Positions 46,485 through 51,110 of a DNA stretch of 64,000 nt are shown piece by piece. The notes under the pieces are model-generated. The model saw only the letters and a program-made list of their open reading frames with translations, did not search any database and was not told where the DNA came from. Both the position numbers and the translations under genes were made by a program. Each line of letters opens with the position of its first letter. Within the stretch, counting starts at the first letter, position 1. The stretch lies in the NCBI RefSeq assembly GCF_016469035.1, contig NZ_JAEHJZ010000010.1:1-64000 (forward strand), read 5' to 3'. The stretch comes from Gelidibacter salicanalis. GTDB lineage: Bacteria; Bacteroidota; Bacteroidia; Flavobacteriales; Flavobacteriaceae.

Positions 46485-46518
46485 TTTATTATCTAATTTT
46501 CTTTTTTAGTTAACGTTT

Positions 46519-46601
46519 GCGTTAAGGATTGCAGCGACATCCTTTTTTGTTTTTCACAAAAAAGATATAGCGGAAAGCCTGACCCTTTTGGGTAACGCCC
46601 A
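46519..46601. repeat. GC-rich intergenic repeat, family A copy 3
   Basis: GCGTTAAGGAT at one end and GGTAACGCCCA at the other; shares GCGTTAAGGATTG and AAAGCCTGACCCTTT(T)-GGGTAACGCCC with the copy at 59288-59365. It lies between paaY and E2. Confidence 0.8.
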
Positions 46602-47350: not shown

Positions 47351-48103
47351 TTATTTAAAACCTTTCAATTTTTCTTTGGTGAACTTGCTTAAGACCAAAC
47401 GGCCGCTGATTGCTGCGCGTTCCGCCAATAAATCATCCCAGTCGTCCGTACCACTCCAGAATACCTTTTTCATTTCTATCATCGCCTCCGGATTGTAGGT
47501 GCACAAATGCTCTGCCGTTGTTTTTACTGCAGCGTCAAGTTCCTCGGTGGACTCGTAAACTTGGGTAAACAGGCCTTTTTCTTTTGCCCAATCGGCCGGA
47601 TAAAAGGTATTGGCGTCAATAGCAATTTGCGACATGGCGCTCAAGCCCATTTTACGCTCAATAGCAGGCCCAACAACAAATGGTCCGATACCAATATTGA
47701 GCTCGCTTAATTTAATAGCGGCAAATTTAGATGCCATGCAATAATCGGTTGCTGATGCCAATCCGACGCCGCCTCCAACAGTCTTGCCTTGAATACGTCC
47801 GATTATGAATTTTGGACATTTGCGCATGGCGTTAATGACGTTTGCAAATCCTGAAAAGAATACTTTCCCGGTAGCTTCATCATTGATATTGATTAATTCT
47901 TTAAAACTCGCGCCTGCACAAAAGGTGCGTTCGCCGCCGCTTTTAAGGACTAGTACTTTTATGGCGTCATTTTTGCCTGCAGCGGTTATGGTGTCCGTTA
48001 ATTCTGCCAACAAATCTCCTGGTAGGGAATTGTGGGCTGGGTGAAAAAATTCGATGTAAGCGACTTCGTTTTCTATGGTTTGTTTTACGTAGGGTTGTGT
48101 CAT
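47351..48103 (-). CDS. Enoyl-CoA hydratase/isomerase (PaaF-type role likely)
   Basis: About 250 residues from the ATG at 48103 (MTQPYVKQTIENEVAYIEF). The crotonase fold signatures TFCAGASFKELI (oxyanion loop) and GGGVGLASATDYCMAS are present. The conserved Glu positions at the active site are less standard than in PaaG. In the paa cluster the remaining crotonase role is PaaF, hydrating 2,3-dehydroadipyl-CoA, so that is the likely job, but sequence alone does not prove it. An upstream start at 48157 would overlap the GIY-YIG gene. Confidence 0.82.
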   Translation of the reverse strand: MTQPYVKQTIENEVAYIEFFHPAHNSLPGDLLAELTDTITAAGKNDAIKVLVLKSGGERTFCAGASFKELININDEATGKVFFSGFANVINAMRKCPKFIIGRIQGKTVGGGVGLASATDYCMASKFAAIKLSELNIGIGPFVVGPAIERKMGLSAMSQIAIDANTFYPADWAKEKGLFTQVYESTEELDAAVKTTAEHLCTYNPEAMIEMKKVFWSGTDDWDDLLAERAAISGRLVLSKFTKEKLKGFK

Positions 48104-48118
48104 GCTTCTTAATTTGTC

Positions 48119-48139
48119 AATGCGCACTTGTTGCGCATT
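48119..48139. repeat. Palindrome downstream of the GIY-YIG gene
   Basis: TGCGCA-CTTGT-TGCGCA (core 48121-48137), extended by AA and TT. Reverse-complemented it is TGCGCAACAAGTGCGCA, one base in the loop different from the one upstream of the same gene. Confidence 0.8.
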
Positions 48140-48153
48140 CGTTTTGTTCTTTT

Positions 48154-48459
48154 TCAATATTTAGATAAATCCCAACCGTCACTTAAATCGTTCCATTTGG
48201 GATTCATTTGGGTAATTATGTTTATTTTCCAATCTCGTTTCCACTTTTTAATGGTCTTCTCCCTTCTTATGGCTAGTCTAATATCAGTATGGGTTTCATA
48301 GTAGACCAATTTCTTAATATTATAATGACCAACGTGAGTTTTAAAAGTCGCTGCCTTATGTTCACTCATCCGTCTAGCCATATTATTTGTTACACCAACA
48401 TAAAAGATATGATTTCTTTCGTGCGTTAGGATGTAAGTATAATATTCTCTGGACATCAT
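48154..48459 (-). CDS. GIY-YIG nuclease family protein (small, stand-alone)
   Basis: About 101 residues. The domain shows YYTYILTHERNHIFYVGVTNNMARRMSEH, a variant of the GIY and YIG strands with the conserved Arg in NNMARRMSEH, then KLVYYETHTDIRLAIRREKTIKKWKRDWK and a Trp/Asp-rich end. Small stand-alone members of this type are numerous in Flavobacteriaceae and of unknown role. It sits alone between paaZ and a hydratase gene, has no link to PAA metabolism, and is flanked by inverted copies of one short palindrome, so it looks like an inserted cassette. Confidence 0.85.
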   Translation of the reverse strand: MMSREYYTYILTHERNHIFYVGVTNNMARRMSEHKAATFKTHVGHYNIKKLVYYETHTDIRLAIRREKTIKKWKRDWKINIITQMNPKWNDLSDGWDLSKY

Positions 48460-48500
48460 GATGACTTATTAAAATCATAATTTAAACTTCAATATGAGCG

Positions 48501-48521
48501 ACTGCGCAACGAGTGCGCAGT
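48501..48521. repeat. Palindrome upstream of the GIY-YIG gene
   Basis: TGCGCA-ACGAG-TGCGCA (core 48503-48519), extended by AC and GT. It is an inverted near-copy of 48119-48139 on the other side of the gene. A TTAAACTTCAATAT word lies just beside it (48482-48495). Confidence 0.8.
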
Positions 48522-48527
48522 GACTTT

Positions 48528-51026
48528 CTATAATAACCCAAACTGCTCAAAGTGATGATTCAAATGTTTTCGTTCCAATAAATAGGCTTCATATTTATTC
48601 AATTCCCCAAACACCAAATTCTTCAATTTAGCTTCTGGATGTTCCTTATAAAACTCCAGATACTTTTCTCTTTGTTCAATAAACTTCTGTTTTGCAGTCT
48701 CTAAATCTGGATAAATCAAACGCTCCAATTTGCCTTTTTCGAGTGTTGGGAAATGGGTATTTTTTGGAAATTTCTCATAATTATACAGGCTCGCATGTAC
48801 CTTTTCCAAAATTTTCTCTGGGGTAGCAACTTCAAAATCTTGAATTTCTCCGGCGGCAATTTTATAGGTGTATTCTAGATGCTCCAACATGTGTTGTGGC
48901 GTCATGATGCCCCATTTCGGCTTCAGGTCCGGCGTTAACTTTGAGAGATAGTTTTTGATAGTGTCGTTCGTCATTTCAACAAAAACCTCTTGTTTTTTCT
49001 GAACCATGGTCAGAATTGTGGCAACGGCAACTAATTCGTCTGCACTGTCAAACACCTCAACAAACCATTTGACAATCCCACTTGGATGTTCAGCTGAAGC
49101 GACGTCTCTATCAACTTTCTGCTTACAGGTTAAACGCACATAAATGGTGTCGTTATGGTATAATGGACGAAGGAATCGACAGTCCTCCAATCCGTAGTTG
49201 GCAGCCACTGGACCTTTGTTTGGATAAACGAACAGTCCTGCAGCGGCGGCAATGATAAAGTAGCCGTGAGCAGTTCGTTTTTCAAAAATACTGCCGTCAA
49301 GAGACGTGATATCGGTATGGGCATAAAAATGGTCCCAAGTCAAGTTTGCGAAATTGATAATGTCTGTATCCGTCAGGGTCCGTTTATGGGTTTTTAATGA
49401 CATTCCTGCTTCAATATCCTCCCAATGGTATTTGAACGGATGCTGTTCCGCTTCTTTATATTTTGCATTGGCTTGATAGATGCCAGTGATTTCAGTTAAG
49501 GTTGTTGGCGATCCTTGGATAGCGGTACGTTGCAAGTAATGCTTGATACCACGCACACCGCCCATTTCTTCGCCACCGCCTGCTCTACCCGGTCCACCGT
49601 GTACCAAATTTGGTAATGGCGACCCATGACCGGTGCTTTCTTTGGCCATTTCACGATTGATGATTAAAATACGTCCGTGGTGACTTGCCGCGTTGATGAC
49701 GTAATCTTTTGCGATCTTATCATCGTAGGTTGCGATTGAGGAGACCAAAGAACCTTTCCCCATATGGGCTAAAGTAATGGCTTCATCTAAATTTTTATAA
49801 GGCATAATAGTACTTACCGGACCAAAAGCTTCCGTTTCATGAACTGCCAAATTTATAAAAGGATGATCTTCGCGAAGTAAAATTGGACTTAAGAAAGCAC
49901 CCTTTTTGGCATCCGCACCAATCGTTTCAATTTTATCGAGATGTCCGTAGACAATGCTTGCTGTTCTAGCCAATTCTTGAACACGATCTCTTACTTCATT
50001 CGCTTGATCTTTACTGATCAAAGCACCCATGCGTACCTCTTTCAATCTAGGATCTCCAATAGTGACTTTATCTAGGGCTTTTCCTAAGGCGATTTGCACA
50101 TCTTCGACAAGATTTTCAGGAACGATAACACGACGGATGGCGGTACATTTCTGTCCACATTTGACGGTCATTTCGTTACGGACTTCCTTGATAAACAAAT
50201 CGAATTCAGGTGTTCCCGGAAGTGCGTCTTCACCCAAAACGGAACAGTTTAAGGAATCGGCTTCCATATTGAAAGGCACTGATTCTTCGATAATGCGTTT
50301 ATGGGATTTTAGAAGTCGCCCGGTAGTCGCGGAACCTGTAAAGGTGACCACATCTTGAGATTCGACTGTATCTAAAATTGCTCTTGCAGAGCCTGTAATT
50401 AATTGTAAAGCACCTTCTGGTAAGATTCCAGAGACGATGATTTCACGCACGACAGCTTCCGTTAAGAAGGACCCATTGGTTGCAGGCTTCACTACTGCTG
50501 GTACACCTGCCATCCAGTTAGTGGCACATTTTTCCAACATCCCCCAAACTGGGAAGTTAAACGCATTGATATGAATGGCGACACCACGTTTTGGCACCAT
50601 AATGTGATGCGCCATAAAGCGTCCGCCACGAGATAAATCGATAGGTTCTCCTTCTACGTGATACGACTGATTTGGGAAGAGTTTTCTTAACGACGCATTG
50701 GCAAATAGATTTCCGAATCCGCCTTCAATATCAATCCAGCTGTCCACTCTAGTAGCACCTGTTCGATAACTTAATTCGTAAAAAGCTTCTTTCCTTTTGG
50801 TGAGATAAAGCGCAAGGCTCTTCAACATATTACCACGTTCCTGAAAAGTCATTTTACGCAAAACTTCGCCGCCTTTGGTGCGTCCGTAGTGCAAAATTTC
50901 AGCAAGATCTAATCCTTCAGTATCAGAAAGCGCCACGACTTCGCCTGTGATGGCGTCAAACATAGGAACGCCTTCTCCTTTTCCTTCAATCCATTGTCCT
51001 GTGACGTAATTTTGTAATTTCTTCAT
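48528..51026 (-). CDS. paaZ: PaaZ ring-opening enzyme fused to a DinB/DUF1569-like domain
   Basis: About 832 residues. An N-terminal aldehyde dehydrogenase domain (about 1-520, catalytic Cys in MTVKCGQKCTAIRRV) is followed by a MaoC-type hydratase domain (about 530-685, HWEDIEAGMSLKTHKRTLTDTDIINFA). These open oxepin-CoA and oxidise the aldehyde in the PAA pathway; PaaZ is normally about 680 residues. The last 145 residues (from about VEMTNDTIKNYLSKL) are an extra domain resembling DUF1569/DinB, with GIMTPQHMLEHLEYTYK and FGELNKYEAYLLERKHLNHHFEQFG. The start at 51026 is preferred over 51038. Confidence 0.9.
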   Translation of the reverse strand: MKKLQNYVTGQWIEGKGEGVPMFDAITGEVVALSDTEGLDLAEILHYGRTKGGEVLRKMTFQERGNMLKSLALYLTKRKEAFYELSYRTGATRVDSWIDIEGGFGNLFANASLRKLFPNQSYHVEGEPIDLSRGGRFMAHHIMVPKRGVAIHINAFNFPVWGMLEKCATNWMAGVPAVVKPATNGSFLTEAVVREIIVSGILPEGALQLITGSARAILDTVESQDVVTFTGSATTGRLLKSHKRIIEESVPFNMEADSLNCSVLGEDALPGTPEFDLFIKEVRNEMTVKCGQKCTAIRRVIVPENLVEDVQIALGKALDKVTIGDPRLKEVRMGALISKDQANEVRDRVQELARTASIVYGHLDKIETIGADAKKGAFLSPILLREDHPFINLAVHETEAFGPVSTIMPYKNLDEAITLAHMGKGSLVSSIATYDDKIAKDYVINAASHHGRILIINREMAKESTGHGSPLPNLVHGGPGRAGGGEEMGGVRGIKHYLQRTAIQGSPTTLTEITGIYQANAKYKEAEQHPFKYHWEDIEAGMSLKTHKRTLTDTDIINFANLTWDHFYAHTDITSLDGSIFEKRTAHGYFIIAAAAGLFVYPNKGPVAANYGLEDCRFLRPLYHNDTIYVRLTCKQKVDRDVASAEHPSGIVKWFVEVFDSADELVAVATILTMVQKKQEVFVEMTNDTIKNYLSKLTPDLKPKWGIMTPQHMLEHLEYTYKIAAGEIQDFEVATPEKILEKVHASLYNYEKFPKNTHFPTLEKGKLERLIYPDLETAKQKFIEQREKYLEFYKEHPEAKLKNLVFGELNKYEAYLLERKHLNHHFEQFGLL

Positions 51027-51110
51027 AGTAATGCCCACAAAAGTGGATATCTTATTATTAAATTATGTACTCTAATTTTAATGTAGCAACTTGTTCTATC
51101 ATGTCTGACT

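Follow-up and report, generated by a model that had tools for sequence, protein, structure and literature searches.

Organization of the locus

All coordinates refer to the window, the whole stretch of 64,000 nucleotides that was analysed. On its minus strand the locus reads paaZ, hairpin, GIY-YIG gene, inverted hairpin and hydratase. The nuclease gene (48154..48459, minus strand) is an ORF of 101 aa; upstream of it, in the same direction, lies a paaZ-type gene (48528..51038, minus strand), and downstream an enoyl-CoA hydratase gene (ECH_1; 47351..48103, minus strand), whose ATG at 48103 was set by alignment with relatives. The original prediction had named both neighbours; the hydratase is borne out as ECH_1, while the name paaZ is carried over from that prediction for a gene that is also the neighbour in relatives.

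The hairpin on the 5′ side of the nuclease gene (48499..48524, minus strand) consists of a GTC tag, the stem ACTGCGCA/TGCGCAGT with the loop CTCGT, and then CG (DNA fold −9.3 kcal/mol, z −2.87). The inverted hairpin on the 3′ side (48116..48141, plus strand) has a GTC tag, the stem AATGCGCA/TGCGCATT with the loop CTTGT, and then CG (−8.5 kcal/mol, z −3.31). Both 17-mers predicted to bracket the gene as inverted palindromes are present in the positions and on the strands given for them. Their cores differ by one loop base, as had been noticed, but the repeat is larger, 26 nt (GTC, 8-bp stem, 5-nt loop and CG), and the next outward pair, just outside the cores, differs too, being A–T in one copy and C–G in the other, a compensated change. 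The tag context is tGTC in one copy and aGTC in the other, and the tails are CGC and CGT. The GTC tags form the outer ends of the whole unit (48116-48524), with three bases between the paaZ stop and the 5′-side tag and 12 bases between the 3′-side tag and the hydratase ATG.

An Rfam search at the hairpins gave no match up to E 1; the sole Rfam match of the window at the gathering threshold is a Flavo-1 RNA (RF01705) at 46504-46588 (plus strand; 59.9 bits, gathering 42). Hairpins in these positions could be ordinary RNA elements (terminators, mRNA stabilisers or control of the hydratase start), with the nuclease gene as a passenger or a housekeeping repair gene. The 3′-side hairpin does abut the hydratase start region, and both hairpins are terminator-like on the plus strand, opposite to the genes, at a frequency near chance (3 found, 2.4 expected). 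However, the tag lies outside the stem and faces outward on both sides, and we regard this explanation as very unlikely, in view also of the enrichment of tagged hairpins at nuclease genes of several phyla and the hairpin–protein co-divergence described below.

The nuclease

The prediction of a GIY-YIG enzyme was confirmed by a Pfam scan, in which the ORF matches PF01541 above the cut-off (E 1.5e-14) as its sole Pfam domain. In an alignment of 40 hand-picked sequences, Y9, Y20, R30, H34, E67 and N86 are invariant, which we take to be the catalytic residues of the GIY-YIG domain, and a KKWKRxWKI segment is conserved. The AlphaFold model (pLDDT 88.8) has UPF0213, Slx1 and the UvrC N-domain as its nearest folds. 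Judged by its sequence, the protein is a member of the GIY-YIG nuclease superfamily. A PADLOC search returned no match up to E 1, and the one NCBIfam match was to a model for group I intron endonucleases, at 19.1 bits and so below the cut-off of 56. Phage records held no match, and PHROG matches were weak (E 0.002-0.007).

It is also conceivable that the target of the nuclease is RNA, namely hairpins in the transcript of its own operon, in a form of autoregulation, as both hairpins would lie in a paaZ–nuclease–hydratase transcript if the genes, which share a strand and are separated by short gaps, form one operon. Such a transcript would carry the two copies in opposite polarity, with the tag at the 5′ end of one hairpin and at the 3′ end of the other. 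Related palindromes are also found in pairs set close together with no gene between them, and the nearest folds are DNA nucleases where function is known; taken together, these points make autoregulation highly improbable.

Nine pairs were compared for dN/dS of the nuclease gene. Six gave 0.07-0.14, two are saturated, and one differs by just one change, which is silent. The Lacinutrix copy (L050), which belongs to one of the six pairs, has an in-frame stop.

Conservation of the hairpins with the gene

In all 11 loci whose nuclease is 76–94% identical to that of the window (L040-L050, from Gelidibacter, Winogradskyella, Luteirhabdus, Ulvibacter, Oceanihabitans, Lacinutrix and one further MAG), the gene lies between paaZ and the hydratase gene; the nuclease of the nearest named relative, G. 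salicanalis, is 94% identical. Across 15 genomes with a clade nuclease, palindromes at ≤2 mismatches occur in the paaZ–hydratase gap alone, on both sides of the gene in 14, and both-side hairpins were found in 14 of 14 searched genomes whose clade nuclease is at least 63% identical. G232 (nuclease 59% identical) carries the clade hairpin on one side, its remaining hairpins being built on a GCGGA core. In G137, which lacks a nuclease of the clade, the gap contains three palindromes in tandem and what to the eye is a decayed fourth, an arrangement that suggests loss of the gene.

Stem covariation was measured on 20 of the 21 distinct sites, a site within hisC being excluded. Five of the eight stem pairs have changed on both sides, in 22 such cells, and 98.8% of cells are paired; none of 500 stem shuffles reached these three values, and 3/500 reached the number of pair types. 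The sites came from a search in which GTC, CG and the inner stem were specified, at ≤2 mismatches, and which so favours pairing and a constant tag, although the two outermost stem pairs, which hold 16 of the 22 doubly changed cells, were left free. Because tag and CG are part of the clade search pattern, their constancy there is partly built in. In a search that did not name the tag, GTC immediately precedes the hairpin on one side or both in six of seven wide-clade gaps; the seventh (L169) has a GTC-preceded hairpin on the 3′ side, and its 5′ stem starts one base later because the outer base is unpaired. The compensatory changes in the stem, together with a dN/dS close to 0.1, are signs that selection acts on both the hairpin and the protein.

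Copy number

Within the window, the 17-mer at ≤3 mismatches is found in two places, the reported ones, and nowhere else, and two or more matches occurred in 2 of 100 shuffled windows. In the 5.16-Mb assembly of the same genome, TGCGCA-N5-TGCGCA without mismatch occurs at these two places alone; one mismatch adds four places elsewhere, with 2 per strand in a backwards control at ≤1 mismatch. In a draw of 199 genomes of the family, the exact motif GTCNNTGCGCANNNNNTGCGCANNCG gave 12 matches in 8 genomes (backwards control, 0), ten of them in the paaZ–hydratase gap and one, in G096, as a solo palindrome in a different gap of that catabolic cluster. The last match (L194, G019:C5:124321) is the exact clade motif inside a coding sequence read by eye as hisC, and may be chance or an intragenic insertion. 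A search of 16 chosen genomes at ≤2 mismatches returned one to three palindromes each, all in the paaZ–hydratase gap, and its backwards control one match (G092).

With one copy of the cassette per searched genome, the pattern departs from that of insertion sequences, which have many copies at many sites. A spreading element built on this palindrome was rejected as a candidate, since the genome of the window has two sites and the clade genomes searched share a single locus.

This palindrome is absent from the remaining GIY-YIG genes of the same genome: one of them, L008, is flanked on a single side by a 5-bp stem with a GTC tag, and two have none. A more distant GIY-YIG gene of this genome (L010, G000:C662:22153-22389) is flanked by CTCGATACATCCCGAAAGCTT-type and CTTCGAGTG repeats with no GTC tag. 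In G001 and G005, distant GIY-YIG genes occur as tandem pairs ~1 kb apart. G015 has 24 matches to GTCATTCCTGCGNNNGCAGGAATC at ≤1 mismatch, and three of its four GIY-YIG matches contain stop codons, the remaining one being distant and open.

Turnover at the paaZ–hydratase gap

A hydratase match was obtained in 155 genomes. For 70 of them, chiefly those with the highest scores, the gap was examined, and both neighbours were found in 68. The original prediction had called for empty paaZ–hydratase junctions to be sought, and in many relatives the gap is indeed empty or otherwise filled. A GIY-YIG gene occupies the gap in 15 of the 68, seven belonging to the clade in the wide sense (54-100% identical) and eight being just 38-46% identical. 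In 24 of the 68 the gap is ≤33 bases. No hairpin of this kind was seen in tight empty gaps; a homing endonuclease would have in the empty allele a recognition site that insertion destroys, which might be of another kind than these hairpins. Some other gaps hold tagged hairpins but no gene (L125, L135 and L152). Within Gelidibacter, this cassette is present in G000 and G001, another nuclease fills the gap in G002, G005, G007, G008 and G009, and no nuclease is found there in G003, G004 and G006. The hairpins of the replacing cassettes in L025 and L026 (G002 and G005) have no GTC tag. The paaZ–hydratase gap is thus a hotspot: it may contain this cassette, a different GIY-YIG gene or hairpins alone, or be empty. 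Further GIY-YIG genes sit in other gaps of the paa cluster. One genome has four GIY-YIG matches within ~6 kb around the paaZ–hydratase locus (G110:C1:1187323-1193549), one of them interrupted by an in-frame stop.

At the protein level, G005 and G007 are 96–98% identical to the window in the hydratase and in the portion of PaaZ that was compared, versus ~41% in the nuclease; between Ulvibacter and Patiriisocius, PaaZ is 93% and the nuclease 63% identical, and the hairpins have changed. Recombination tracts flanking the exchanged cassette were sought in 150-nt windows along paaZ and the hydratase gene, between the genome of the window and G001, G005 and G007. Identity was 0.83-0.97, with 0.70-0.74 in the short last window, and in each of the three comparisons it fell to 0.83 close to the 3′ end of paaZ, where G001 and G007 are 0.91 identical to each other. 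The dip is special to the genome of the window, which makes a short recombination tract possible.

The original prediction suggested that the unit could be a mobile or selfish element in which the nuclease cuts at the palindrome. If such an element were active, the nuclease would cut the end palindromes and move the 400-bp unit, much as a RAYT REPtron would with another enzyme. The layout is REPtron-like, and the empty, swapped and gene-less states of the gap, the solo palindrome of G096 and the three gene-less tandem copies of G137 all favour such an element. So does G011, which has a closely spaced outward pair elsewhere in addition to the pair around its nuclease gene. Against it stand the two sites in the genome of the window and the single locus shared with 11 relatives at least 76% identical, and nuclease identity partly tracks PaaZ identity (rho 0.69, 11 loci). 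Furthermore, we know of no covalent intermediate in GIY-YIG hydrolysis that could serve strand transfer. A self-spreading unit is therefore not supported, and we consider an active mobile element unlikely.

The same layout around related nucleases

We collected 113 GIY-YIG loci (4 + 29 + 80, the last kept of 189), which left 94 after removal of those with >90% protein identity; a hairpin was counted if it had a perfect stem of ≥7 bp at ≤160 nt from the gene, and ORFs of the same loci served as controls. The 94 nuclease genes have 153 perfect hairpins nearby, 89 upstream and 64 downstream. An outward GTC stands 5′ of the stem in 64 of these 153 (32 upstream and 32 downstream), against 14 of 186 around 263 control ORFs, while inward GTC is found in 8/153 near nuclease genes and 12/186 near control ORFs. 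GTC-tagged outward hairpins on both sides mark 24 of the 94 nuclease genes and 2 of the 263 control ORFs (p 2e-13, too small a value as the loci share descent), and a tagged hairpin on either side marks 38/94 and 12/263. The two-sided rule is failed by 70 of the 94 genes, and 56 have no perfect tagged hairpin on either side. Among all 64 trinucleotides, GTC gives the top two-sided count for stems of 5, 6 or 7 bp, and the runners-up are mostly shifted readings of GTCATT.

Hairpins and proteins diverge together: in the 38 genes with tagged hairpins, protein similarity and hairpin similarity are correlated (Mantel rho 0.58, with 0/2000 permutations as high), and upstream and downstream hairpins are more alike within one gene (0.89, 24 genes) than across genes (0.49). 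Among the 24 two-sided genes are some from Bacteroidota, from Bradyrhizobium and from contigs assigned to candidate phyla. In many flavobacterial relatives the stems are similar but lack the GTC tag, and no tagged hairpins were seen for the Planktothrix and Spirosoma relatives. In Neisseria gonorrhoeae, a relative with 39% identity over 85 aa is surrounded by cgtcATTCCCGC...GCGGGAAT hairpins of the CGTC/dRS3 type; these occur on both sides of the gene, clustered and in both orientations, with no clean outward pair.

The tie between palindrome and GIY-YIG gene that had been proposed is therefore upheld, as one structural class recurs at GIY-YIG genes of several phyla, often in the REPtron-like inverted layout. 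Two observations had been named in advance as counting against the proposed mobile element, a fixed locus in all relatives and palindromes unassociated with other GIY-YIG genes; the close clade does sit at the same locus, but the palindromes do associate with other GIY-YIG genes.

On the Azospirillum lipoferum plasmid AZO_p3 (L262), a GIY-YIG gene with CGTC hairpins separates sufB from sufC; like the gene of the window, it appears to lie within an operon. In two metagenome-assembled Bacteroidota (L066 and L067), the GIY-YIG frame runs on into 6-phosphogluconate dehydrogenase domains, in frames of 539 and 603 aa.

A model for the cassette

Taken together, the sequence data favour, with good though not full confidence, a cassette made of a GIY-YIG endonuclease and two inverted GTC-tagged hairpins that are most likely its own recognition sites, in a variant with a single locus and two sites. 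By analogy with Ssn, it is probably of the Ssn single-strand DNA nuclease kind. The hairpin would fold when the DNA is single-stranded, as in transformation uptake or on the lagging strand, and the enzyme would nick at or near the GTC tag of the folded hairpin, as is reported for Neisseria Ssn. With two outward sites, the enzyme could excise the strand that carries the cassette or break it, which might affect whether the cassette is kept, lost or swapped via flanking homology. In this clade the cassette has long resided at one locus and is no spreading repeat.

A wider proposal, which we put forward only tentatively, is that small GIY-YIG nucleases are the missing dedicated enzymes of GTC/CGTC palindromes throughout bacteria, and that in the paa clade nuclease and hairpins have turned into a fixed cassette. 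Its two outward sites would drive allele exchange at a single operon gap through transformation and homologous flanks, with no transposition, so that related species retain the flanks and exchange nuclease and hairpins as one. The association spans Bacteroidota, Alphaproteobacteria, Neisseria and candidate-phylum contigs, which offers many natural nuclease–hairpin pairs with different stems, and the paa clade is a clean model with one gene, two sites and no background copies.

Comparison with known systems

Ssn is reportedly a family of site-specific single-strand GIY-YIG nucleases acting on a Neisseria repeat (said to have appeared in Nat Commun in 2025), with what are said to be hundreds of sites per Neisseria genome. 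The Neisseria relative described above is presumably of the Ssn type, and its similarity to the window nuclease indicates that the two are homologous; the Neisseria protein may be Ssn itself. Like Ssn, the window nuclease is a small stand-alone GIY-YIG protein, and its Neisseria relative lies among CGTC/dRS3-type hairpins; in contrast, the Gelidibacter stem has a TGCGCA core and there are two sites per genome. UPF0213, Slx1 and the UvrC N-domain have structure-specific repair or unknown roles, and the window nuclease group differs from them in its conserved KKWKRxWKI segment.

The original prediction held that the element could be undescribed, which is doubtful given the Ssn family and the CGTC-tagged palindromes described in Di Nocera 2013 (PMC3733652). 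There, CGTC-tagged REPs have a CGTC tag (TGTC or CCTC in variants), an 8-9-bp stem and a 4-5-nt loop, and the CGTC-1 elements of Neisseria are the dRS3 repeats. The window repeats resemble them in the 5′ GTC tag, the 8-bp stem opening with an A–T pair, the 5-nt loop and the inverted pairs, and so agree in tag, stem and loop, although aGTC is absent from the variants in section 6 of PMC3733652. They differ in the tail, which is CG(C/T) and not CCA, and in copy number, with two copies in the genome of the window against the high numbers typical of CGTC-tagged REPs. The same paper leaves the CGTC palindromes apparently with no dedicated transposase or other enzyme as of 2013, and a pairing with GIY-YIG nucleases can now be tested directly.

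REPtrons, as outlined in the same source (PMC3733652), combine a RAYT tyrosine transposase with GTAG REPs. The window cassette shares with them a gene between inverted tagged palindromes, but has a GIY-YIG protein in place of a Y1/HUH tyrosine transposase and GTC in place of GTAG, is not dispersed, and is thus not a RAYT REPtron. A printed link between GIY-YIG proteins and REP palindromes was sought in part of the literature, and none was recognised among the matches listed. In summary, the kind of system is probably already known, and what is added here is the clade, its stem sequence, the two-site single-locus state and the turnover of cassettes at one operon gap.
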